From Synechococcus sp. PCC 6312 (GTDB lineage Bacteria > Cyanobacteriota > Cyanobacteriia > Thermosynechococcales > Thermosynechococcaceae): 64,000 bases of DNA. Position 1 is the first letter of the stretch; every line of letters starts with the position of its first letter. Below the pieces are notes generated by a model, which was not told the origin of the DNA, ran no database searches, and worked only from the letters and a program-made list of their open reading frames with translations. A program made the translations under genes and the position numbers. Shown piece after piece: positions 35,509 through 54,653 of the stretch. The DNA is taken from assembly GCF_000316685.1 (NCBI RefSeq), contig NC_019680.1, positions 2,667,501 to 2,731,500 of the forward strand, read 5' to 3'.

Positions 35509-35853
35509 GTGGTCGTGGAGGACTTTGAAATCTTTAAGTCTCGTTTTTCTCTGATGGTTTCAGAGATGCGTGGGACTATGCCTCAGCGTGAGTTTTGTCT
35601 GTTGCTTGGGGTGAGTCAATCTGCGATTCAGATGTGGGAGTCAGGCGGTAGTCTGCCTTCCCTAGAGAATCTAGCGAGGGTCGCTGCTTTTAGAAATGAG
35701 ACGACAGAAGCGTTGGTGGCCTACTTGTTCGCCCGGCCTTTAGAATCTCAGGCAGCAACTGTGATGGATCAGGTAGATCAAATGTCTATGCTGGAATTAT
35801 CTGAGCTAACTAAAGCAATTTCCCATCGGATGTTGGCGTTACTCTCAAAGTGA
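35509..35853 (+). CDS. XRE-family transcriptional regulator
   Basis: The protein has 114 residues. MPQREFCLLLGVSQSAIQMW ESGGSLPSLENLARVA is a clear Cro/C1-type helix-turn-helix (about residues 24-65). The C-terminal 50 residues probably dimerise. GTG starts at 35509 or 35515 are both possible. It is divergent from the RHH-winged-helix operon, suggesting that it represses it. It overlaps the end of the zinc-ribbon gene by nine bases. Confidence 0.78.
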   Translation: MVVEDFEIFKSRFSLMVSEMRGTMPQREFCLLLGVSQSAIQMWESGGSLPSLENLARVAAFRNETTEALVAYLFARPLESQAATVMDQVDQMSMLELSELTKAISHRMLALLSK

Positions 35854-36177
35854 GTCATCCTTCCATCCGCAATGCTCGCAATCCCAATGGATGCGTGGTT
35901 GCTCCGTTTCATGCAGTGGCATTTCACAGTTTGGGCATCGTCCCGTAAATAGGGGATGCCATTCCAGTAGCTCTAGTCGTTCTTCATAGCTTAATGCTGG
36001 TGGTTGGTAGATTAGCTCCCCGTTGTAGAAAGCGGCTCCTTCTGGTTGCCACTGTTCTTCTTGCGGACTTAATTCAAACTCAGGACATGGTTCTTGAGGT
36101 GGCCCGCTGGGGTGGATCGCACACATAAGGTAGTTAGAGTGGGCGTAGTTTAGGCACTTGAAACAATACTCATTCAT
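35845..36177 (-). CDS. Zinc-ribbon protein
   Basis: The protein has 110 residues. CFKCLNYAHSNYLMCAIHPS near the start and CPNC...CEHCGW at the end form two Cys clusters that should bind zinc. The ALSYEERLELLEWHPLF linker is typical of small cyanobacterial proteins of unknown role. Its start overlaps the stop of the AlbA-domain gene by four bases, making it the last gene of the restriction-modification operon. Confidence 0.6.
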   Translation of the reverse strand: MNEYCFKCLNYAHSNYLMCAIHPSGPPQEPCPEFELSPQEEQWQPEGAAFYNGELIYQPPALSYEERLELLEWHPLFTGRCPNCEMPLHETEQPRIHWDCEHCGWKDDSL

Positions 36178-45391: not shown

Positions 45392-45955
45392 TCATAAGGC
45401 ATGGATTACATTAGTCACAACACCCCAGACTTGAAAGGCACTGGCATCCGTAATCTCAATGTCAGGGTAGTTGGGGTTCTCGGCTTGCAGGAGCAGCCTT
45501 TTACACTTGCGTCTCAGTCGTTTTACCGTTAATTCCCCGTTCAACACCGCAATGACAATCTGCCCGTCTTTCGGCTCCAGGGAACGGTCAACAATAATTA
45601 CATCCCCGTCATGAATCCCAACCCCAATCATCGAATCCCCAGACACTCGGGCCATAAAGGTTGCAGCCGGATTTTTGATGAGATAGCGGTTGAGGTCTAA
45701 CCGTTGCTCAATATAGTCATCAGCAGGGGATGGAAACCCGGCGGAGACAGGCATCTGATAAAGGGGTAAGGGTAAAGTTGCTCCCAGTTGGGGGCGATAT
45801 AACTCAGTCAGGGTTGTCCGGGGCTGTTGCCGCTCTAGTAATTGGGGAATCTGCCCAATGACACTTAGGGGTAAGCGAATCGCTTGGGTGGGTTCACCAT
45901 ATTTCCCCGTCCCTTTAGGTCGTCCTGCCCCTGGTCTTACCCCACCTTTAGACAT
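45392..45955 (-). CDS. umuD: UmuD-like S24 peptidase
   Basis: The protein has 187 residues. The catalytic Ser108 is in RVSGDSMIGVGI and Lys145 in GELTVKRL, with a likely self-cleavage site at Ala72-Gly73 (SAGFPSPADDY). The first 50 residues (GVRPGAGRPKGTGK) form a basic extension common in cyanobacterial UmuD. Cleavage would generate UmuD' for polymerase V. Its partner umuC is on the same strand but about 1.1 kb away beyond the DUF433/DUF5615 genes. Confidence 0.9.
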   Translation of the reverse strand: MSKGGVRPGAGRPKGTGKYGEPTQAIRLPLSVIGQIPQLLERQQPRTTLTELYRPQLGATLPLPLYQMPVSAGFPSPADDYIEQRLDLNRYLIKNPAATFMARVSGDSMIGVGIHDGDVIIVDRSLEPKDGQIVIAVLNGELTVKRLRRKCKRLLLQAENPNYPDIEITDASAFQVWGVVTNVIHAL

Positions 45956-46075: not shown

Positions 46076-48349
46076 TTATTTGCTTTTTACTTTCCATAAC
46101 GCTCTAACCACTCTTAGTTCTTCATAGGAGAATTGTTCATTGAGTTCTTCATAGATAGGCTTGAGTCGGTCGGCTCCATGTTTATCAAAGGCTTTGAGCA
46201 TAGTGGTTTGACGTTCTGAGGAGACTAATTTTTCGATGCTGGCGATTTGTCCAGCTTCGATTCCATCGGCTAAGTGTTCATAGACCCGCTGTACTTTCAT
46301 TTCAAGGCTTTTTGCTATGTCTTGAGGGTAGAGTCCATTTTGGAATAGTTTGCAGACATTGCGTGTTCGTTCTCCGGCTGCTTTCTTCTCTGGGACAGCT
46401 TCTCTGGGTATGAAGTGGGGCATGGCTTCACTGAGGCCATGGGTTTTGCAATAAGAGAAAATGCGGTTTACGAAGGTTGAGCCATAGACTTCTAGTTTTT
46501 TGTCCCCGACACCCGTGATTCGGCTGAAGCTGGCTAGGCTACAGGGCCGATACCGGGCCATCTCCTTCAGACTTGTTTCGGTGAAGATGAGGTAAGGTGC
46601 GATGCCCTGGTCATCAGCTAACTCTTTGCGAAGGGTACGCAGTGATTGGAATAGTCCAGTATGGATGGGGCCCAGGTTGGGTTCTTTTTCGACCGTTACT
46701 TTTTCCTTGCTGAGTTGATTGGGCATTGATACCCAGACTTGGTGTTGTCCTCTAAGTACCGCCCAACTCAGGGTATTGAGGGTGAGGATACCGTAGCCAT
46801 CATCCGATTCATTAACCAAGTTTTGTTGGACGAGACTGCGGGCTAGATGCTGCCATTCCTTGATTGACTTATCAAGGCCAATGCCAAAGGTTGAGAGTTT
46901 GTCGTGACCGTACTTGATAACCTTGTCTTGAGTTGAGCCTCGGAGAATATCAACGATGTGGCGGATGCCAAAGCGTTCATTGGTGCGGGCCACACAGGAG
47001 AGAAACTTTTGGGCTTCGATTGTCCAGTCTTGTTTAGGTTTGGGAAAGCGGCAGTTATCACACTGGCCACAGTTTCCGCCAAAGACTTCACCGAAGTAGC
47101 CGAGGAGGGTTGTTCTGCGACAGAGGGTGCTGTCGGCATAGGCGGCAATCTGCCGGAGTTGTTGTCTGGCGATGCGCTGCTCATCTTCCAGGGGTTCATT
47201 GGTTTCCGGGTGAACCTTGTTCTGAATAAACCAGTCTGCTTGTTTGATGTCTCCAGGGCTGAAGAACAGCGTGCATCGGGCCGGTTCACCATCCCGACCG
47301 GCCCGACCGGATTCCTGGTAATAGCCTTCGATGGTTTGGGGCAGATCGTAATGGATGACAAAGCGGACATCAGGTTTGTTGATGCCCATGCCAAAGGCAA
47401 CGGTGGCCACCATGATTTGCACATCGTCCCGAATAAAACGGGTTTGATGGTCGGTACGGGTTTCGTTACTCAGTCCAGCATGGTAGGGCAGGGCTGAAAT
47501 ACCATTCTCGTTTAATTCACTGGCCAGCTTTTCAACCTGTTTGCGGCTCATGCAGTAGATGATGCCAGAGCCTTCTGTCTCCTTGATGTAGCCAGTGAGT
47601 TCCGATAGGCTGACTTTGCCTCGGCTTTTTTCAATGACTTCGTAGTAGAGGTTAGGGCGGTTAAAGCTGGCGACATGGACAAAGGGCTTTTTCAGAGAGA
47701 GTTGTTCGGTAATGTCGGTTCGGACGCGGTGGGTAGCTGTGGCGGTTAATGCGATGACGGGGATAGTTGGGAATCGTTCTCGCAGCCGACTGAGTTGGCG
47801 ATAGTCGGGTCGGAAGTCATGGCCCCATTCCGATACGCAATGGGCTTCATCTACAACAATGCTGCTGATGCCAACGGTCTGGTGAATGGTTTCGAGCAAG
47901 GCGGTAAAGGAGTCACTAACTAATCGCTCCGGGGCAACGTAGAGTAACTTCACTTCCCCGGCCATGATGGCCGCAATTCTTCCCCTGGCTTCTGCGGCCG
48001 ATAAAGTGCTGTTCAAAAATGTGGCGGCAATGCCATTTTTCTGTAAGGCCACCACCTGGTCTAACATCAGGGCAATCAGGGGAGACACAACTAAGGTGAT
48101 GCCTGTTTTGAGAAGGGCGGGTAACTGGAAGCAGATGGACTTCCCCCCACCCGTTGGGAGGATTGCTAAAACGTCTTGCTGATTGAGAGAAGCTGTAATG
48201 ATGTCTGCCTGTCCGGGGCGAAACGCCTCATATCCGAAATAATGCTTGAGGGCCTCTAATGGCAACATACAACTGGGACTAATGTTCTTTGAAATTGTAT
48301 CAGAATCAAGATTGCTTCTGGGTTTGGTTGTTGTTTGGGTGATTGGCAT
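46076..48349 (-). CDS. recQ: RecQ-type ATP-dependent DNA helicase
   Basis: The protein has 757 residues. Motifs are complete: AILPTGGGKSICFQLPALL, VVDEAHCVSEWGHDFRPDY, QTIEGYYQESGRAGRDGEPA, the zinc-binding CRRTT...CGQCDNC and an HRDC-like region (IAPYLIFTETSLKEMARYRP). It unwinds recombination intermediates. The start could also be the ATG at 48268, where the RecQ core begins (MLPLEALKHYFGYEAFRPGQ); the longer form overlaps the upstream gene by 44 bases. Confidence 0.93.
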   Translation of the reverse strand: MPITQTTTKPRSNLDSDTISKNISPSCMLPLEALKHYFGYEAFRPGQADIITASLNQQDVLAILPTGGGKSICFQLPALLKTGITLVVSPLIALMLDQVVALQKNGIAATFLNSTLSAAEARGRIAAIMAGEVKLLYVAPERLVSDSFTALLETIHQTVGISSIVVDEAHCVSEWGHDFRPDYRQLSRLRERFPTIPVIALTATATHRVRTDITEQLSLKKPFVHVASFNRPNLYYEVIEKSRGKVSLSELTGYIKETEGSGIIYCMSRKQVEKLASELNENGISALPYHAGLSNETRTDHQTRFIRDDVQIMVATVAFGMGINKPDVRFVIHYDLPQTIEGYYQESGRAGRDGEPARCTLFFSPGDIKQADWFIQNKVHPETNEPLEDEQRIARQQLRQIAAYADSTLCRRTTLLGYFGEVFGGNCGQCDNCRFPKPKQDWTIEAQKFLSCVARTNERFGIRHIVDILRGSTQDKVIKYGHDKLSTFGIGLDKSIKEWQHLARSLVQQNLVNESDDGYGILTLNTLSWAVLRGQHQVWVSMPNQLSKEKVTVEKEPNLGPIHTGLFQSLRTLRKELADDQGIAPYLIFTETSLKEMARYRPCSLASFSRITGVGDKKLEVYGSTFVNRIFSYCKTHGLSEAMPHFIPREAVPEKKAAGERTRNVCKLFQNGLYPQDIAKSLEMKVQRVYEHLADGIEAGQIASIEKLVSSERQTTMLKAFDKHGADRLKPIYEELNEQFSYEELRVVRALWKVKSK

Positions 48350-48548
48350 GGATTATTTTTGGGTTTAGTTCATGCCTCCGTAGGACATCCAAGATTGAGA
48401 GTTGTTGTTCGATGGGGTAGTTTTTATCGAGTTCATGGGCGATTTCGAGTAGTTGTTGCGCGATGATGGTCGGGACGCGAATGATACTGGTTTCTCGATT
48501 CTTCCAGCTACTTTTGCGTCCCGCTCCTTTTCGTTGGCCGCCCCGCAT
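48306..48548 (-). CDS. Small basic protein upstream of recQ
   Basis: The protein has 80 residues. GGQRKGAGRKSSWKNRETSI IRVPTIIAQQLLEIA resembles the RHH-like or basic N-terminal arms (GGxRxGAGRxxxW) found in plasmid-type regulators. It overlaps recQ by 44 bases and follows the coiled-coil gene in a TAATG arrangement. Function unknown. Confidence 0.55.
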   Translation of the reverse strand: MRGGQRKGAGRKSSWKNRETSIIRVPTIIAQQLLEIAHELDKNYPIEQQLSILDVLRRHELNPKIIHANHPNNNQTQKQS

Positions 48549-48844
48549 TAGATTGCTTCTTCCTTAACTGATTCAGTAAAGATTTTAAGTGCTTTCTTGA
48601 GTTGGATGGCGAGGATGCCATCAATGTTTCCTGAGTTCCGTAGCCGGATGGATTCATGGAATAGGTTTTCGGAATCTTGGATTTTCTGGATTGCCTGTTC
48701 TTTTAGCTTTTGGATAAGCTGATGGTATTCATTAAGCCGATTGGATTCTAGGCAGCTTTTGGCGTACTCTCTCATAATCTTCTCAACTTCGATGGCGCAG
48801 TGCTTTTCCTTGATTTCGGCTTCAAATTCTTCGATGGTCTTCAT
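48548..48844 (-). CDS. Coiled-coil small protein
   Basis: The protein has 98 residues, largely charged helix (EIKEKHCAIEVEKIMREYAK; HQLIQKLKEQAIQKIQDSEN). No family recognised. CAGGAG lies eight bases upstream of the ATG. It is the first gene of the recQ operon, next to a 180-base divergent spacer. Confidence 0.55.
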   Translation of the reverse strand: MKTIEEFEAEIKEKHCAIEVEKIMREYAKSCLESNRLNEYHQLIQKLKEQAIQKIQDSENLFHESIRLRNSGNIDGILAIQLKKALKIFTESVKEEAI

Positions 48845-49023
48845 TAGGAACTCCTGGTTGGTTTACACACATAAAACAATGATGGAATGGGCTTGATTAT
48901 TTTAATTCTCTCAATTTCGTTAAACTATTGATTAGTTAGGTCTAACGATTCTTTGAATGGGACTGTTTGGTGTTCCTCCTTCTTTTGGGTAAACTTAATG
49001 TATCCTTAACCTACTGATTCCGA

Positions 49024-49314
49024 ATGGACGAGTTTAGCCGTTTATTTTCTGAAGTTGTAATGAGTCGTGTGCTAGAGCGGTTGGATGGTAGTACGGCTTA
49101 TTTGTTGCGTGGTTGTCGGGTATCAAAATCTGGTTCTTCATTGGTGGTGGGTTGTCCTTCGGATCAGGTGGCCATCAAGTTATCCACTTGCTTGAATCAG
49201 TCATTAGGCCAGCGTTGTCAGTCATTAGGCTTTGTTCAGGTCTTTTTTGTTTGCCCTGATGCGTTTGCATTTCAGTTTGACCTTAATGAGTTTGGCTTCG
49301 TTCTGAATATTTAA
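49024..49314 (+). CDS. Opposite-strand island protein, paralogue of 51915-52250 (possible DnaA-N-like fold)
   Basis: The protein has 96 residues. Pattern: LLRGCRVSKSGSSLVVGCPS then LSTCLNQSLGQRCQSLGFVQ and PDAFAFQF. The beta-strand 'SGSxLxVxCPS' followed by an amphipathic helix resembles the N-terminal domain of DnaA, though this is only a resemblance. A second island gene encodes the same pattern. Both lie on the plus strand among minus-strand genes, facing them, which suggests separate promoters and regulatory roles. Confidence 0.6.
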   Translation: MDEFSRLFSEVVMSRVLERLDGSTAYLLRGCRVSKSGSSLVVGCPSDQVAIKLSTCLNQSLGQRCQSLGFVQVFFVCPDAFAFQFDLNEFGFVLNI

Positions 49315-49325
49315 CCCTATTTGTT

Positions 49326-49727
49326 CTAGGGGAAGTCAATACTTTTCTGTCCAATTTGTTGGAAATATCGCTCCCGTTTACGGCGGCGGGTTGCTTTGGC
49401 ATTGGCGATGTGGTGTTCCATGTCATGGGCAAGGTGGCACTTGGGGCATAGGGCTTTCAGGTTTTCGATGCGGTTATCTTGGGGGCGATGGTTGAGGTGG
49501 GCCACGGTTAGGGTGAACCGTTGTACTTTTTCTTGGTCGTTTTCGAGGGTGTCTTTGATCCAGCGTTTATCGGGATAGTCACAGAGCCAGTGAATAAAGA
49601 CTTTCCAGGGAACGCCTGGTTTGCGACATGGCCGCCCACAATCTTGGCACGTCCAGTTGGCATTGTGCTTGATGGTATGGGCAATGGACTTCCAGTTTTT
49701 TGGGTATTTGCGTCTATCAATGGGCAT
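49326..49727 (-). CDS. HNH endonuclease (island)
   Basis: About 133 residues from ATG 49727. CQDCGRPCRKPGVPW gives the first Cys pair, FTLTVAHLNHRPQDNRIENL KALCPKCHLAHD the HNH core with the second pair. The C-terminal ARRRRKRERYF-like tail is basic. The start at 49766 would overlap the upstream gene by 50 bases. The last codons fall in a TTGTTCTAGGGGAAGTC repeat. It probably nicks DNA at phage- or plasmid-like sites. Confidence 0.8.
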   Translation of the reverse strand: MPIDRRKYPKNWKSIAHTIKHNANWTCQDCGRPCRKPGVPWKVFIHWLCDYPDKRWIKDTLENDQEKVQRFTLTVAHLNHRPQDNRIENLKALCPKCHLAHDMEHHIANAKATRRRKRERYFQQIGQKSIDFP

Positions 49728-49920
49728 TTTGGTAGGTGCGTCTATGGCCTTGAACAATATTGTCAATAATTTGTTTGGCTTCTTTAAGTGCCTGTTTCCG
49801 ATTGATGGCTTCGGTCGTCAGTGTGAAGACTCGGTGGCCCAGGTCAATACTGGCTCCATAGCCAAGCTCTGTCTCCCAGGTTTCAATCTCGTAGCCTTGG
49901 TAGATGGTGCGTTCAAGCAT
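49717..49920 (-). CDS. Small hypothetical protein (67 aa)
   Basis: Sequence YQGYEIETWETELGYGASID LGHRVFTLTTEAINRKQALK suggests a small alpha-beta domain with a helical end. Unrecognised. It sits between the Gp157 gene and the HNH gene and overlaps the latter's start by 11 bases, so it is part of the same operon. Confidence 0.5.
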   Translation of the reverse strand: MLERTIYQGYEIETWETELGYGASIDLGHRVFTLTTEAINRKQALKEAKQIIDNIVQGHRRTYQNAH

Positions 49921-49931
49921 GATGGGTTCTC

Positions 49932-50447
49932 CTATTGAATACGGAGTGTTTCGGAACGTTCGCCCAGGCTGGCAAAGGGTAATGATTCCCCGGCTTCCAG
50001 TGCGGCCCGGATGGCGACTTTATCTGGGTTAATTAGTGTGACCTTGTAGGGTTCAGGTAGGTCGTCTGGGTCAAGGTCAGGGTCAAGGATGAGTGGTTTT
50101 AGCCCTCCGCTTTTGACGATGTTGATGTTGTACCGCTCCGTGCTGATTTTCCGAAGTCCAATGTTTTCCAGGTGATTTTTTAGGGCGGTGCGAAGCCGTT
50201 TGCTGAGGCTCTCATCAATCTTGGCCAGGGTATTGAGGCGTTCTGCTTCTTTTTTTCGGGCTTCGGCTTGCCGTTCAAACTCGCTGATTAGGGCGACATA
50301 GTTATCGAGCCGTTTGTGGTCTTTGGCTCCATCTACACATTCGATCAGGTAGCTGGACATGAGTTCTTCGGCATCTTCTGAATCGTGGCAGAAGGTCACT
50401 TCTTCTTTCAGGTCAACAAGGTCACTACTCAGTTCAAGAATGGTCAT
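49932..50447 (-). CDS. Siphovirus Gp157-like protein
   Basis: The protein has 171 residues from ATG 50447, set by TTAAGGAGAAAACC upstream. The central coiled coil (FERQAEARKKEAERLNTLAK) and the tail NINIVKSGGLKPLILDPDL, then INPDKVAIRAALEAGESLPF, match the Gp157 family of siphoviruses, where it sits among replication or annealing genes. It marks this run as phage-derived. Exact role unknown. Confidence 0.82.
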   Translation of the reverse strand: MTILELSSDLVDLKEEVTFCHDSEDAEELMSSYLIECVDGAKDHKRLDNYVALISEFERQAEARKKEAERLNTLAKIDESLSKRLRTALKNHLENIGLRKISTERYNINIVKSGGLKPLILDPDLDPDDLPEPYKVTLINPDKVAIRAALEAGESLPFASLGERSETLRIQ

Positions 50448-50494
50448 GGTTTTCTCCTTAAGGTTATGTTGATAGGGCAGTCTGACCGTAGTTG

Positions 50495-50710
50495 TTATCC
50501 CACTGGTGGTAGCCAAGGAAATTTCTTTCTGAGGCTTTGTTGCCAGGTGATCGTTTCAGCTTGTTGGGTGGGGGATGGGGTGGGGTGTTCGATGGCTTTA
50601 CGCCATGCGTCCTTAGTTCTTGGGTTGCCGTAGCGACAGGCGAGACAATAGGCGTACTCGCCGTGTTTAGTTTCTGCAATGCGTTGGAGGTCTGAGAGGG
50701 ATTCGCTCAT
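50495..50710 (-). CDS. Small hypothetical protein with Cys pair
   Basis: The protein has 71 residues. EYAYCLACRYGNPRTKDAWR suggests a small zinc- or metal-binding site, and the C-terminal WQQSLRKKFPWLPPVG is conserved-looking. Unrecognised. It overlaps the upstream gene by four bases. Confidence 0.5.
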   Translation of the reverse strand: MSESLSDLQRIAETKHGEYAYCLACRYGNPRTKDAWRKAIEHPTPSPTQQAETITWQQSLRKKFPWLPPVG

Positions 50711-51117
50711 TTATCCCCTCGTTTGCCATTGATGCAGGCCTCACACTCTTTGATGATTTTCTTGATGGTGGCTTGGTGTTGGGGTATTTCGTAGGCTTGG
50801 ATGGTTCGAGAGTTGATGCTGATGGTTCGCTCGACTTCTAGCTTGGCGGTTGCTTGGATGCCATAGCCTTCTTCTCCCTGCGGTTTGAGATTGAGGCCAA
50901 TGATTGCGCCTTCGTTCCAGTCATCGGCCAGCCGAGTCTCTTCGATCAGGATGCTCATGAGTTGGTTTAGACTGTCCTGCAAGTCGGGGTGTACTTTTCC
51001 CCGAACGTGAAACTGGACTTCCTCGATGCTGCCGTCCTGCATATAGCGGTTCAGCCAGATCGTGGATTTTGACCCTCCAATTTTGATTTTCTGGATTGTC
51101 TCTGTCATTTCAGACAT
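50707..51117 (-). CDS. Hypothetical phage-like protein (136 aa)
   Basis: Mostly beta structure at the start (IQKIKIGGSKSTIWLNRYMQ) with a final Cys pair (IIKECEACINGKRGDK). No family recognised. It directly abuts the upstream gene and overlaps the downstream one by four bases, so it is co-translated in the minus-strand run. Confidence 0.5.
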   Translation of the reverse strand: MSEMTETIQKIKIGGSKSTIWLNRYMQDGSIEEVQFHVRGKVHPDLQDSLNQLMSILIEETRLADDWNEGAIIGLNLKPQGEEGYGIQATAKLEVERTISINSRTIQAYEIPQHQATIKKIIKECEACINGKRGDK

Positions 51118-51540
51118 TTAGTTTTCCTCTTGAATGGGTTTTTCGATCACTTCAAATCTGAGTGTGTTGGTATAGACTGATTGCTCTCCGATGTTGACAA
51201 ACAATTTTTGCCCAGGTTTTGTTTCAACTTGGAATTGATGCTTGATGTTTTTGTTGATTGGGTTAGTTTTGGTTCCCAGGTGCTTGATTATGGGTTCAGG
51301 GTAAGCGGCTGTTTCCTTTGTCTTGTACCCGTTCTCCTCTGCGATTTTATACAGTGTGATCTGACCTGTTTTGAAGTCCACATATCGGGGAATATTTTTA
51401 GGGATTAGGTAGATATTTCCCTTTTCGTTGTAAAGGTGAAGGCTTACTGTCTCCTGATCTAATATTTCTACAACAATTCCAAACTCGAACTCTCGATATG
51501 GCTTGTTGAGTTTTACGATGTCGCCTAATGAGATTGTCAT
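51118..51540 (-). CDS. Hypothetical beta-rich protein (140 aa)
   Basis: The start MTISLGDIVKLNKPYREFEF and GIVVEILDQETVSLHLYNE suggest an SH3-like or KOW-type barrel. The rest is polar. GGAGACT precedes the ATG. Unrecognised family; part of the phage-like run. Confidence 0.5.
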   Translation of the reverse strand: MTISLGDIVKLNKPYREFEFGIVVEILDQETVSLHLYNEKGNIYLIPKNIPRYVDFKTGQITLYKIAEENGYKTKETAAYPEPIIKHLGTKTNPINKNIKHQFQVETKPGQKLFVNIGEQSVYTNTLRFEVIEKPIQEEN

Positions 51541-51545
51541 TGGTT

Positions 51546-51743
51546 CTAGTCTCCGTAATCAGGTGGGAAGGAATACTTGAGATGGATGTTGTAAGTCGGT
51601 TTCATTTGGCAGGGTTTCAGGATTACTTTCTCTAATACTCCTTTTCCCCATCTCCACTTTTGTTCTGAGATTCTTCCAAGAGCATTAAGGAGTCTTACCG
51701 ATACTTTGCATTCGATTTCGGAATATTTTTTGTTACCATTCAT
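51546..51743 (-). CDS. Small hypothetical protein (65 aa)
   Basis: A basic protein, KKYSEIECKVSVRLLNALGR and ILKPCQMKPTYNIHLKYSFP. Unrecognised. Overlaps the preceding gene's 3' end by 11 bases, indicating coupled translation. Confidence 0.45.
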   Translation of the reverse strand: MNGNKKYSEIECKVSVRLLNALGRISEQKWRWGKGVLEKVILKPCQMKPTYNIHLKYSFPPDYGD

Positions 51744-51885
51744 CTTCCTTTTCTTCCCACTGTTCGTCTGGATTGGTTATTTCTTCAGGCTTTGATGTTT
51801 CCGGTTCTTCGGGTTCGTCAGGTTCGTAACCCCATTCTTCATAGGGTCGGCCATGGCATTCAACGACTTGCTTTAAGTAGTACAT
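51733..51885 (-). CDS. Small acidic protein (about 50 aa)
   Basis: ATG 51885 is chosen because TTAGGAC lies upstream and the longer frame to 52050 would run through the opposite-strand paralogue gene. The sequence MYYLKQVVECHGRPYEEWGY is followed by a Glu/Pro-rich tail. Unrecognised. Its start is 30 bases from the divergent start at 51915. Confidence 0.5.
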   Translation of the reverse strand: MYYLKQVVECHGRPYEEWGYEPDEPEEPETSKPEEITNPDEQWEEKEDEW

Positions 51886-51914
51886 TGGTAGAGTCCTAAA
51901 TCTACTTGTGCCGT

Positions 51915-52250
51915 ATGGACGTTGCTGATCTTGAACAGCTTTTTTACGTTTTTCTAATGCAACGCTTCGCCTCGTCATTGGATCCCATGACGAGACAGCT
52001 ATTGCATCAATGCGAAGTGGAAATTTCGGGTAGCACATTGTTGGTGTCATGCCCTTCTGAAACGTTGGTTAACCTACTGGTGCGCCGACTAAGCCATAGC
52101 TGGGGACAACTGTGTGATGCGCTTGGCTTTCAAGAGGTTCGTCTGACTGACCCGGATGGGTTTGTGTATCAGTTTGCGGCTCGTTTTGGTCGGTATTCCC
52201 TTGTGATTCCTGGGGTTCCGTCTGAGTTTTATGAGCCTCCAGAGCTTTGA
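51915..52250 (+). CDS. Opposite-strand island protein, paralogue of 49024-49314
   Basis: The protein has 111 residues from ATG 51915. LLHQCEVEISGSTLLVSCPS, LVRRLSHSWGQLCDALGFQE and PDGFVYQF align with the 96-residue paralogue at 49024 over nearly the whole length. Fold resemblance to the DnaA N-terminal domain is suggestive only. The last 182 bases lie antisense to the 3' end of a Rho-N-domain gene, an unusual overlap. Confidence 0.6.
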   Translation: MDVADLEQLFYVFLMQRFASSLDPMTRQLLHQCEVEISGSTLLVSCPSETLVNLLVRRLSHSWGQLCDALGFQEVRLTDPDGFVYQFAARFGRYSLVIPGVPSEFYEPPEL

Positions 52251-52704
52251 TTAACTCGGATTTCCGCAACCGTTTGTAGTTCTCGATATTTAACCCTTCA
52301 GCCAATTCTTTTAATTGCTTTAAGGTTAATTCGTTGAGATCGGCTTCGGATTCAGCTTCAGCTTCCACTTCAGCATCTTCGATGGTGGTAGCTTCTGAGC
52401 TTGTGACTTCGGTAGCAGCGGCTAACAATTTGGCATTTTTTCGCTCTTGCTCGGCCAACCAAGTATTGAGATAGTGCCGACCTTTTTCAAACTCGATCCG
52501 AGCGTCTTGACCCAAGTTGTAGGTGAGAACACAGACTTGGAAGGTGAATTTAACCAAGGTGACGATGGTTTCAGTTGTAGAGATGATCAATTCTTTGCCA
52601 GCAGCGGTTGTAGCGATTGCTGCTTCTTTTGTTGTTGGAGTCATTTTTTTGTTTTTTGTAACGACACCCTCCCCCGAAGGACGTTTCCACCATTTCCATT
52701 TCAT
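52069..52704 (-). CDS. Rho-N/SAP-like domain protein
   Basis: About 211 residues from ATG 52704, preferred because GAGGACAAAAAA directly precedes it; ATG 52728 would add eight residues. A hydrophobic helix (GKELIISTTETIVTLVKFTF) lies near 38-65. An acidic linker is followed by LNELTLKQLKELAEGLNIEN YKRLRKSELIKALE, a Rho N-terminal/SAP-like nucleic-acid-binding hairpin. The last 60 residues are Gln/Thr-rich and encoded antisense to the gene at 51915. Confidence 0.6.
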   Translation of the reverse strand: MKWKWWKRPSGEGVVTKNKKMTPTTKEAAIATTAAGKELIISTTETIVTLVKFTFQVCVLTYNLGQDARIEFEKGRHYLNTWLAEQERKNAKLLAAATEVTSSEATTIEDAEVEAEAESEADLNELTLKQLKELAEGLNIENYKRLRKSELIKALEAHKTQTEPQESQGNTDQNEPQTDTQTHPGQSDEPLESQAHHTVVPSYGLVGAPVG

Positions 52705-52740
52705 TTTTTTGTCCTCTTTTTTCGACATCTTATGGGAGAT

Positions 52741-52869
52741 GTTCTAGGGGAAAGCAACCCCTTTCTTAAAAACTTGTTCTAGGGGTAACTAACTTGATCG
52801 CCTGGGTGGGGTGCCGGGGCGACAACTGGAGGGGCGGCTGTTCTAAGAGTAGGACTCACCCCTAGAACA
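52741..52869. repeat. Cluster of GTTCTAGGGG motifs
   Basis: GTTCTAGGGG at 52741, TTGTTCTAGGGG at 52774, a degenerate TGTTCTAAGAG at 52839 and the inverted CCCCTAGAACA at 52859-52869. Parts can pair (ACCCCT...AGGGGT). The same motif ends two genes elsewhere in the island (49321, 54705). Located in the 160-base gap upstream of the Rho-N gene. Confidence 0.65.
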
Positions 52870-52889
52870 CTTTTAATTTTTGTGGATGC

Positions 52890-53117
52890 TTACATACAGG
52901 CGGAGCATAGTTCTTTAGATTCGGTCACTACTGTCAGTCCTGCCTGATTGAGCTTGGATTTGGCCTTTTTGTATTCAACGGCCATGTCGATCAAGTTTCG
53001 GAGGTCATCGTTTGATGCCGTTTTTTTCATGGCCTCGAAGGCGAGGTCAAGGTTGCGATTTGCAATGCTAATGTTGTGGATTAGAGTATTCACAGAATTT
53101 CCAGTTGAGAACAACAC
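52890..53117 (-). CDS. Small helical hypothetical protein (75 aa)
   Basis: Helical sequence NRNLDLAFEAMKKTASNDDL RNLIDMAVEYKKAKSKL with a C-terminal CSACM. Unrecognised. It lies between the macro-domain gene and the repeat cluster in the same direction. Confidence 0.45.
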   Translation of the reverse strand: MLFSTGNSVNTLIHNISIANRNLDLAFEAMKKTASNDDLRNLIDMAVEYKKAKSKLNQAGLTVVTESKELCSACM

Positions 53118-53129
53118 GATGAGTTTCTT

Positions 53130-53573
53130 TTACCACCACTCGTAAATGTGGACTGTATCAGGCAACGTTTTAAGGATATTGAGAACATCCTCTTTATTTA
53201 GTCCGCCGAGTCCAGTACCGGGGATAGGCATGGCCACCACGACTTTCCCTCCAGTGGTTTCAATAAATTCCTGAAGTACAGTAGCTGACTGTTGGATCAG
53301 GGATAGGGTACTGGGTTCTTTCCAATCGGTTTTGGATTGAAATAGACCGATTCCATTGACGATGATAAATCCGTAAAAGCCAAGGTTGCCGCACGTTCTT
53401 TGAATATAGTCACCGGCCAAACCTGGGATAGATGGGTCACGGTTGGCCGCTTCCAAGGCCGTTCCTTTTCCCATGACGAGGGTTCCATCTTTTTTGATGA
53501 CGCTGTTGGTTGTCACGGTTGGGACAACGATCTCAGCGGGGTCTTTCCAAAATGAACCGTAGATTAATTTCAT
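53130..53573 (-). CDS. Macro-domain protein (ADP-ribose binding)
   Basis: The protein has 147 residues. VPTVTTNSVIKKDGTLVMGK GTALEAANRD and the loop PIPGTGLGGLNKEDVLNIL are the two ADP-ribose-binding loops of macro domains like Poa1p or phage ADP-ribose-1-phosphatase. GGTG precedes the tandem ATGs at 53573-53576. It may remove ADP-ribose or act in counter-defence; that is inferred. Confidence 0.78.
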   Translation of the reverse strand: MKLIYGSFWKDPAEIVVPTVTTNSVIKKDGTLVMGKGTALEAANRDPSIPGLAGDYIQRTCGNLGFYGFIIVNGIGLFQSKTDWKEPSTLSLIQQSATVLQEFIETTGGKVVVAMPIPGTGLGGLNKEDVLNILKTLPDTVHIYEWW

Positions 53574-53683
53574 CACCTTTTTTTATTAAGAGCATTGTCA
53601 CGAAGGTTTTAATAGGGTTTTGTTAATTTAAATTTCTATCGTTTTTTTTAAGATGCCCCCGGACGGCCAGGGGCATGACGGGT

Positions 53684-54217
53684 TTAGAATGGCCCGACTT
53701 CTGTATCCTCGGTCGAGCCGGGAAGTGTGGTCGGAGTGGTGGTTGCATTTAACCGAGCGGAGTAGATTTCATGTTCGGAGGCGAACAGTTGCAGTTCTTC
53801 AATCCGTTCTGGCTTGCTGTTTTGAAACTCAAACTCTACGGCGTAGTAGTTGCCTGTATCGTTAGAGCGTTTGGCCATCCGGGCCACGGTGATTCCCATG
53901 CCAACATTTAGCTGTTGTTGGGCTAGTTCCAGGTAGTAGTTGGTGAAGTTATCCAGTGATTCCGTTTTGATCAGGATTTGAGAAACGACATTCTCTCGCA
54001 CGAACAGGATTTCGACCCATTGCTGGTAGGGATAGTTGAACAGTTCGCCTTCGATGGCCCGGAATCCGATGATTTCCATCTCCAGCTTTGGCCCAACCAT
54101 TTTGGAGTCACCGATTTTGAATTGTCCGGCTTTACAATCGGCACGATACTGGCGTGGCCGTCCAGGGATGTAAATGATTCCGTCCATTGGTGGTGCTTCA
54201 AATACGTTAGTGAACAC
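53684..54217 (-). CDS. Hypothetical phage-like protein (177 aa)
   Basis: GTG at 54217 is chosen because AAGGAGG lies nine bases upstream; the longer frame would overlap the SWIM gene by 86 bases. Segments IYIPGRPRQYRADCKAGQFK and ITVARMAKRSNDTGNYYAVE suggest a beta-rich nucleic-acid-binding protein. No family was recognised. The gene overlaps the SWIM gene's end by 11 bases and is co-translated with it. Confidence 0.55.
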   Translation of the reverse strand: MFTNVFEAPPMDGIIYIPGRPRQYRADCKAGQFKIGDSKMVGPKLEMEIIGFRAIEGELFNYPYQQWVEILFVRENVVSQILIKTESLDNFTNYYLELAQQQLNVGMGITVARMAKRSNDTGNYYAVEFEFQNSKPERIEELQLFASEHEIYSARLNATTTPTTLPGSTEDTEVGPF

Positions 54218-54653
54218 AGGGGTTTTCCTCCTTAATGACATTGAGACTGAAAGACTGTTCGTAATCCTTGAGTGAATTGAAACCAATGGCACGGATCACG
54301 CTGTAGATGTGTTTGCAACATCCTTTTTTCCACACTTTTTTCTGTTTTTCGTAGTCGGGACAGGTACATTCCACACTTGGCCCATTCAGCAGAACTTGGT
54401 AAGCGATGTGAGGGTTTGTGGCATTGCGAACCCCATACCGATGCTCTGAGAGTTTGACTGGCTTTAGGCTATGACTGCCTTGCTGTCGATATTCGACAAA
54501 CATTTCAGCAAATTTCTTTTTGCTAATGAGTATGGGTGATTGGTCTTTGACCTTTACCCAAACTGTTTTGAACCATTCCTCCACTTTTTCAATATTTTCT
54601 GGGGCGACTCCGAGAATCCGAGACGCATTTTGGTAGTTATAAATCAGTGACAT
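54207..54653 (-). CDS. SWIM zinc-finger protein
   Basis: The protein has 148 residues. VECTCPDYEKQKKVWKKGCC KHIYSVIRA is a CxCx(n)CxH SWIM finger. The first 60 residues are an unassigned helical part. SWIM domains bind DNA or protein partners in recombination. The start's ribosome site (AGGA) lies within one arm of a perfect 8-base inverted repeat. Confidence 0.75.
   Translation of the reverse strand: MSLIYNYQNASRILGVAPENIEKVEEWFKTVWVKVKDQSPILISKKKFAEMFVEYRQQGSHSLKPVKLSEHRYGVRNATNPHIAYQVLLNGPSVECTCPDYEKQKKVWKKGCCKHIYSVIRAIGFNSLKDYEQSFSLNVIKEENPCVH

Follow-up and report, generated by a model that had tools for sequence, protein, structure and literature searches.

What are the two small genes that stand alone on the plus strand of an island in the cyanobacterium Synechococcus sp. 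PCC 6312, and what might they do there? The window analyzed here is a stretch of 64,000 nucleotides from contig NC_019680.1 (positions 2,667,501 to 2,731,500), and coordinates below are those of the window unless another locus is named. The genes are P0001 (49024..49314, plus strand; 96 amino acids) and P0002 (51915..52250, plus strand; 111 amino acids, with its start at the ATG at 51915). The original prediction, made from the letters alone, was that they encode paralogs with a DnaA-N-like pattern that may form an island-specific family of regulators or replication adaptors. We find that both proteins are probably homologous to the C-terminal domain of DnaX (tau) and share a predicted DnaA-domain-I-like fold. 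P0001 and P0002 would represent a known domain in a new, free-standing form, whose function on the island we infer.

The presence of two homologous open reading frames (ORFs) at these coordinates was confirmed. P0001 and P0002 are identical at 34 of 83 aligned positions (41%, E 3e-19), and both hold the residue pattern that had drawn attention to them. The claim that each stands alone, as a plus-strand gene in minus-strand surroundings, also holds, judging by eye from the ORF list for 48306 to 54653, which includes overlapping frames. A correction is needed: the last 182 bases of P0002 are antisense to the 3' end of the minus-strand ORF at 52069-52728, mostly within the low-complexity tail of its protein. 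A search of the same genome with P0002 found three places at E <= 10, to which a profile made from alignment A1 adds only a 24-residue match that contains a stop codon (E 0.70) and is taken as chance. The third copy of the gene, P0003 (L004:9080-9373), is found at a distance of ~1.02 Mb, within another copy of the island that is partly broken. P0001 and P0003 differ at 13, 10 and 46 first, second and third codon positions, respectively, with a nonsynonymous divergence (dN) of 0.135, a synonymous divergence (dS) of 1.45 and thus a dN/dS of ~0.1 (NG86; the test covers P0001 only). Because the changes fall mostly in third positions and this ratio is low, P0001 is a real gene, and it is under purifying selection. 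P0002, for which there is no close copy, is judged to be real from its homology and fold. No other domain was found in the 96- and 111-residue ORFs, and neither is attached to an AAA+ clamp-loader ATPase.

The statement that the proteins fit no named family was borne out, as neither has a match above the cut-off in Pfam, NCBIfam or PHROGs (the libraries scanned, with PADLOC left out). Below the cut-off, P0002 resembles the NII domain of PolC (PF11490; E 0.0017, 18.7 bits against a cut-off of 26.3 bits), as does a distant relative encoded at a locus of another cyanobacterial genome, L005 (E 0.032); P0001 was not matched. Unlike PolC NII, the island proteins have no attached polymerase. A search of PDB sequences found no relative (the best match, E 0.021, is an unrelated-looking sensor kinase). 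No description of the family was found in the literature on stand-alone homologs of the DnaA N terminus or on small proteins related to DnaX/tau in cyanobacteria, a search whose coverage excludes most subscription journals.

The kinship with DnaX emerged from profiles built from cyanobacterial genomes for the DnaX C-domain (26 of 30 loci), the DnaA N-domain (27 of 31) and the helicase loader DciA (29 of 30), the remaining loci having been lost to ORF or pattern filters. In hhalign comparisons, a profile of P0001 to P0003 matches the DnaX C-domain at 77% with a score of 30.3, in contrast to 0.25% for DnaA and 0.5% for DciA. When the L005 protein is included, these figures become 82% (32.3) for DnaX, 1.2% (15.5) for DnaA and 0.6% (14.0) for DciA. 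The similarity to DnaX extends over 46 columns, with a compatible order of helices and strands. Shuffling the columns of the DnaX profile 100 times gave maximum scores of 14.6 for the island proteins alone and 16.7 with L005, and when windows were slid along DnaX and DnaA (49 in all), those over the same DnaX domain led, the others scoring ~19 or less. Addition of more distant relatives lowers the DnaX figure to 54% and 33%. A hidden Markov model (HMM) of the DnaX C-domain places P0002 first (E 0.063) among 1782 ORFs of its own genome, drawn from the window plus eleven further stretches. With a DnaA HMM, P0001, P0002 and P0003 rank only 213th, 253rd and 415th, respectively, and with a DciA HMM they rank 240th, 450th and 300th. 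On these percentages and ranks, DnaA and DciA were rejected as the closest relatives in sequence.

The DnaX C-domain of the host matches PF23007 (DnaA_N-like_STI; "STICHEL, DnaA_N-like alpha-beta domain") with E 2.4e-12, and the DnaX C-domain and DnaA N-domain profiles match each other at 96%. This kinship explains the resemblance to DnaA that was noticed at the outset. The label "DnaA-N-like" holds at the level of fold, whereas the nearest kin in sequence is the DnaX/tau C-terminal domain, also called tau domain V. Several features set the island proteins apart from that domain: they stand alone with no AAA+ body or linker, they carry a pair of cysteines, and PF23007 does not appear among the matches of P0001 or P0002 up to E 10 in a Pfam search whose filters drop most weak matches. 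As a side observation, of the 26 DnaX proteins read from cyanobacteria (L100-L128, L006), 14 have PF as their last two residues, mostly preceded by acidic residues (DDVPF, DDLPF). We take these ends to resemble the C-terminal tip of SSB.

AlphaFold2, given only the two window sequences, predicts the same topology for both proteins (helix-helix-strand-strand-helix-helix-strands), in each case with a pLDDT of 77 and a pTM of 0.65-0.66. The two top Foldseek matches of the P0001 model in PDB are chains of 4tps (E 0.029 and 0.037, prob 0.99), taken as DnaA domain I from their length. Further down are 5fku_E (rank 5) and 5fkv_E (rank 21), which we take to be tau, and the tau C-domain 2aya (rank 32). 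VIA-align likewise ranks DnaA domain I first for P0001 (Z 7.1, 3.3 A, 77 aligned residues), followed by DciA (Z 6.8). The P0002 model gives weaker results: a DnaA N-domain reaches Z 6.3, effectively tied with an unrelated chain at Z 6.5, and Foldseek places 4tps_D 14th and 5fku_E 21st. DciA (DUF721; PF05258) is found among tied matches at Z 4.8-6.8, at best 6.2 for P0002 and 6.8 for P0001. Chains of DnaA domain I, DciA and the tau C-domain recur among the PDB matches, and a phage protein with a DnaA N-domain appears at rank 25 in BFVD. These models support the predicted DnaA-N-like fold, more strongly for P0001 than for P0002. Unlike DnaA itself, the island proteins have no domains III-IV and no significant profile match to domain I (PF11638). 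DciA has a small KH-like fold that the models may resemble, but it has no sequence relation to P0001 or P0002, and the host encodes a DciA of its own.

The suggestion that the family is island-specific is doubtful because distant relatives lie on the chromosomes of many cyanobacteria, and, as far as profiles reach, the family is probably not confined to islands. Among 292 genomes of the phylum, P0002 matched two, its own and the one that carries L005 (G197; E 7.7e-4, a level at which ~0.2 matches are expected by chance). Across 28 other genomes of the host's family, the best E value reached by the A1 profile was 0.016. In 388 genomes it matched 42 at E <= 0.1, which is about the chance level by E-values, and two relatives stand clearly above chance (E 6.4e-6 and 2.6e-5). 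Loci from part of the 42 genomes were translated, and those bearing the pattern were kept by eye and searched again. The resulting set of 33 sequences omits plainly unrelated proteins and the weaker candidates L030, L038, L041-L043, L048 and L054. A second profile, A2, comprises ten rows picked by eye. It gave matches in 74 of the 388 genomes (E <= 0.01); chance would account for ~4 of these, and 7 are genomes that had contributed rows to the profile. Among the loci that it matched, L078 was dropped because of a wrong reading frame, and L068 was represented by its N-terminal part only. Of the 74 genomes, 41 belong to one family, f15, which from a match in Kovacikia we presume to be Leptolyngbyaceae. 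The best-scoring relatives are single-domain proteins of ~100 amino acids. Together, the relatives on chromosomes suggest a protein family of cyanobacteria that has so far escaped annotation.

The link between the island proteins and the f15 family is thin and needs L005 as a bridge. The island proteins alone score 25.6 against f15, compared with a shuffle maximum of 26.2; with L005, the score is 33.7 against 24.3. An f15 HMM favors the link, ranking P0002 first (E 0.015), P0001 fifth and P0003 18th among the 1782 ORFs. The f15 profile alone does not match DnaX (0.6%). No relative of P0002 was found in viral contigs, plasmids or genome contigs, of P0001 in plasmids or phages, of alignment A1 in viral contigs, or of the L005 protein in genome contigs. 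A single match of P0002 in phages (E 0.6) is taken as chance. The idea that copies might be found on cyanobacterial plasmids thus failed for P0001 and P0002 themselves but succeeded for one distant relative, which lies on a 1.2-Mb plasmid of Kovacikia.

Two cysteines, C31 and C44 in P0001 and C33 and C46 in P0002, occupy the only columns that hold a single residue in all 33 sequences of the family set. In both models, given the register read from the predicted strands, these cysteines would face each other in a hairpin. Among the 26 cyanobacterial DnaX domains, the first cysteine is present in six, and none has a cysteine at columns 39-48, which surround the second; one has a cysteine at column 38.

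We tentatively favor the reading that P0001 and P0002 are single-domain adaptors or decoys that act on the host replisome. They would be single domains of the KH-like fold common to the DnaX/tau C-terminal domain, PolC NI and NII, and DnaA domain I. Free of an ATPase body, such a domain might bind one of the partners that DnaX or DnaA has in the host replisome, and might thereby steer replication factors to the island or damp host replication. That some neighboring genes are of DNA-metabolism or phage type also speaks for this reading. DnaA domain I is also contacted by regulators. According to passages of PMC11470591, tau domain V contacts Pol III alpha, and according to passages of PMC5448010, DnaA domain I contacts DnaB; a figure legend in a 2026 survey (PMC12926913) relates PolC NI and NII to tau domain V. 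Over-expressed tau domains IV-V inhibit growth, according to a portion of PMC11470591, and YfdR, a protein of the cryptic phage CPS-53, binds DnaA domain I, according to a portion of PMC5448010. Because domains of this type make replisome contacts and such precedents exist, a free copy on an island is most simply read as an adaptor or decoy. YfdR is similar in that a mobile-element protein acts on the same interaction network, but its target is DnaA domain I; on the island, the domain-like protein would itself be the product of the element. The interaction domain of DnaX and DnaA is known mainly inside large replication proteins; if the adaptor or decoy reading is true, free-standing island versions would give the element a direct route to recruiting the host replisome or blocking it.

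Several observations weigh against this reading. The DnaX C-domain HMM that places P0002 first puts P0001 only 35th and P0003 231st among the 1782 ORFs. Because all VIA Z scores are below 8, with unrelated folds nearly tied, and no Foldseek match in PDB or BFVD attains E 0.001, fold alone is not proof. According to part of PMC11470591, E. coli tau needs residues beyond the folded domain for binding to alpha, and no counterpart of this alpha-binding tail was recognized in P0001 or P0002. The aromatic residue that contacts DnaB, Phe46 in E. coli DnaA (PMC5448010, in part), is also missing. At the equivalent position, assigned from the pattern, all 27 cyanobacterial DnaA segments have Phe, whereas P0001 has Q, P0002 has T and P0003 has D; 24 of the 33 sequences in the family set have W. 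Moreover, for 16 of the 26 relatives examined, a thiD motif follows closely (within 1.5 kb), which is a non-replication setting. One relative (L035:955-1686, minus strand; also L068) runs on into ~150 residues that look PAS-like by eye, near a gene that looks sufS-like by eye, and this region has no Pfam match. The thiD-adjacent relatives and the PAS-like fusion do not suggest replication.

The last of these observations fit a different account, which we consider somewhat unlikely overall: a small cyanobacterial regulatory family could use the fold outside replication, with the cysteine pair as a disulfide or redox switch, and the island would merely carry copies. The invariance and facing register of the cysteines favor it, as do the absence of a counterpart to the second cysteine region from cyanobacterial DnaX and the chromosomal relatives beside thiD motifs, including the one that precedes a PAS-like region. 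However, the link from the island to the thiD-side relatives is the thin one described above, profiles that contain cysteines favor matches that bear them (L048, which was left out of the set, lacks the second cysteine), and the cytoplasm is usually reducing. A long shot is that an undescribed free-standing family of tau-V/DnaA-I-like proteins with cross-strand cysteines, common to mobile elements and cyanobacterial chromosomes, might act on the island as adaptors or decoys under redox control, capturing the host replisome and tying replication to the redox (light) state of the cell.

Two further explanations draw on the surroundings of the genes, and both seem improbable. A KH-like nucleic-acid binder might regulate the divergent minus-strand operons, possibly via island motifs such as TGTTCTAGGGG. 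P0001 and P0002 each have a divergent neighbor on the minus strand, conservation between the island copies extends to the P0001 leader, TTTGTTCTAGGGGAAGTC follows the gene unchanged in both copies, and the KH-like DciA binds single-stranded DNA according to a portion of PMC12547741. Against this, P0001 and P0002, read directly, have no GxxG loop, and the motif is absent beside P0002 (the nearest site is at 52740), only two of its 30 genome sites directly following one of the three genes. It is slightly less probable still that the proteins are phage-type toxins or antagonists of a non-replication host function, with a merely generic fold resemblance. Their phage-like neighbors would suit this role, and a small alpha/beta fold attracts numerous PDB matches of middling quality, ribosomal and LarE domains among them; the match to the DnaX C-domain profile is specific, however, under both the shuffle and the sliding-window controls. 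The replisome adaptor or decoy thus remains the reading that we prefer, at the tentative strength given above.

The island that carries both genes is mobile-looking, and several neighbors of P0001 and P0002 are phage-type or DNA-metabolism genes. Convergent with P0001 is a phage-type HNH endonuclease gene (49326..49766, minus strand; phrog_1571, E 6.5e-24), followed by a gene for a Gp157/Mu Gam-like end-protection protein (49932..50456, minus; PF05565, E 1.7e-28; phrog_253). The Rho_N-domain protein that P0002 overlaps (52069..52728, minus; PF07498, E 7.5e-11) has its Rho_N domain at residues 130-163 and also has phage-family matches. On the other side of P0001 are a divergent gene with no family above cut-off (48548..48844, minus), a RecQ-like helicase gene named by eye (46076..48349, minus) and an S24 peptidase gene of UmuD/LexA type (45392..45955, minus; PF00717, E 1.8e-33), which has a 79% match to a plasmid umuD. 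Others nearby encode a SWIM zinc-finger protein, a UmuC-like polymerase named by eye and proteins with no family match. A small ORF is divergent from P0002 (51733..51885, minus). It had been listed as 51733-52050 and probably begins instead at the ATG ending at 51885, so that the two starts are 29 bases apart; the segment 51733-51888 has no Pfam match. The divergent region upstream of P0001 (48845..49023) contains blocks conserved in the second island copy (alignment A6), and sigma-70-like sites between 48700 and 52900 are at chance level (4 observed vs 3.9).

In the second island copy (L004:1-12400), nucleotide identity is 76-86% for the RecQ-like gene (a synteny anchor, at 85.7%), the UmuC-like gene, the S24 peptidase gene and the region of P0001 and the HNH gene. 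The HNH frame there is shortened and is followed by ORFs that look transposase-like by eye; P0003 is intact. Elsewhere on the island, a small cysteine-rich protein (35845-36177) has a similar counterpart (L175:1729-2106) on a second contig of 23 kb, probably a plasmid.

A motif, TTGTTCTAGGGG, is frequent and clustered in the genome and lies directly 3' of P0001 and of its island-2 copy, not of P0002. In the form TGTTCTAGGGG it occupies 49322..49332 (plus strand), just after the P0001 stop codon and at the same place in the island-2 copy, an association only. This form has 30 genome sites, compared with two for a reversed control, and 25 of the 30 are within 2.716-2.857 Mb (noted span, 2716822-2856532). 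A tie between the motif and the genes was considered and is unsupported, given the counts cited above. In four cases genome-wide, the motif forms an inverted pair whose members are ~10 bases apart. The window sites are at 49322, 52740, 52775, 52859 and 54706. At two of them (TAG at 49326 and 54710), a minus-strand gene whose product ends in DFP has its stop codon within TGTTCTAGGGG.

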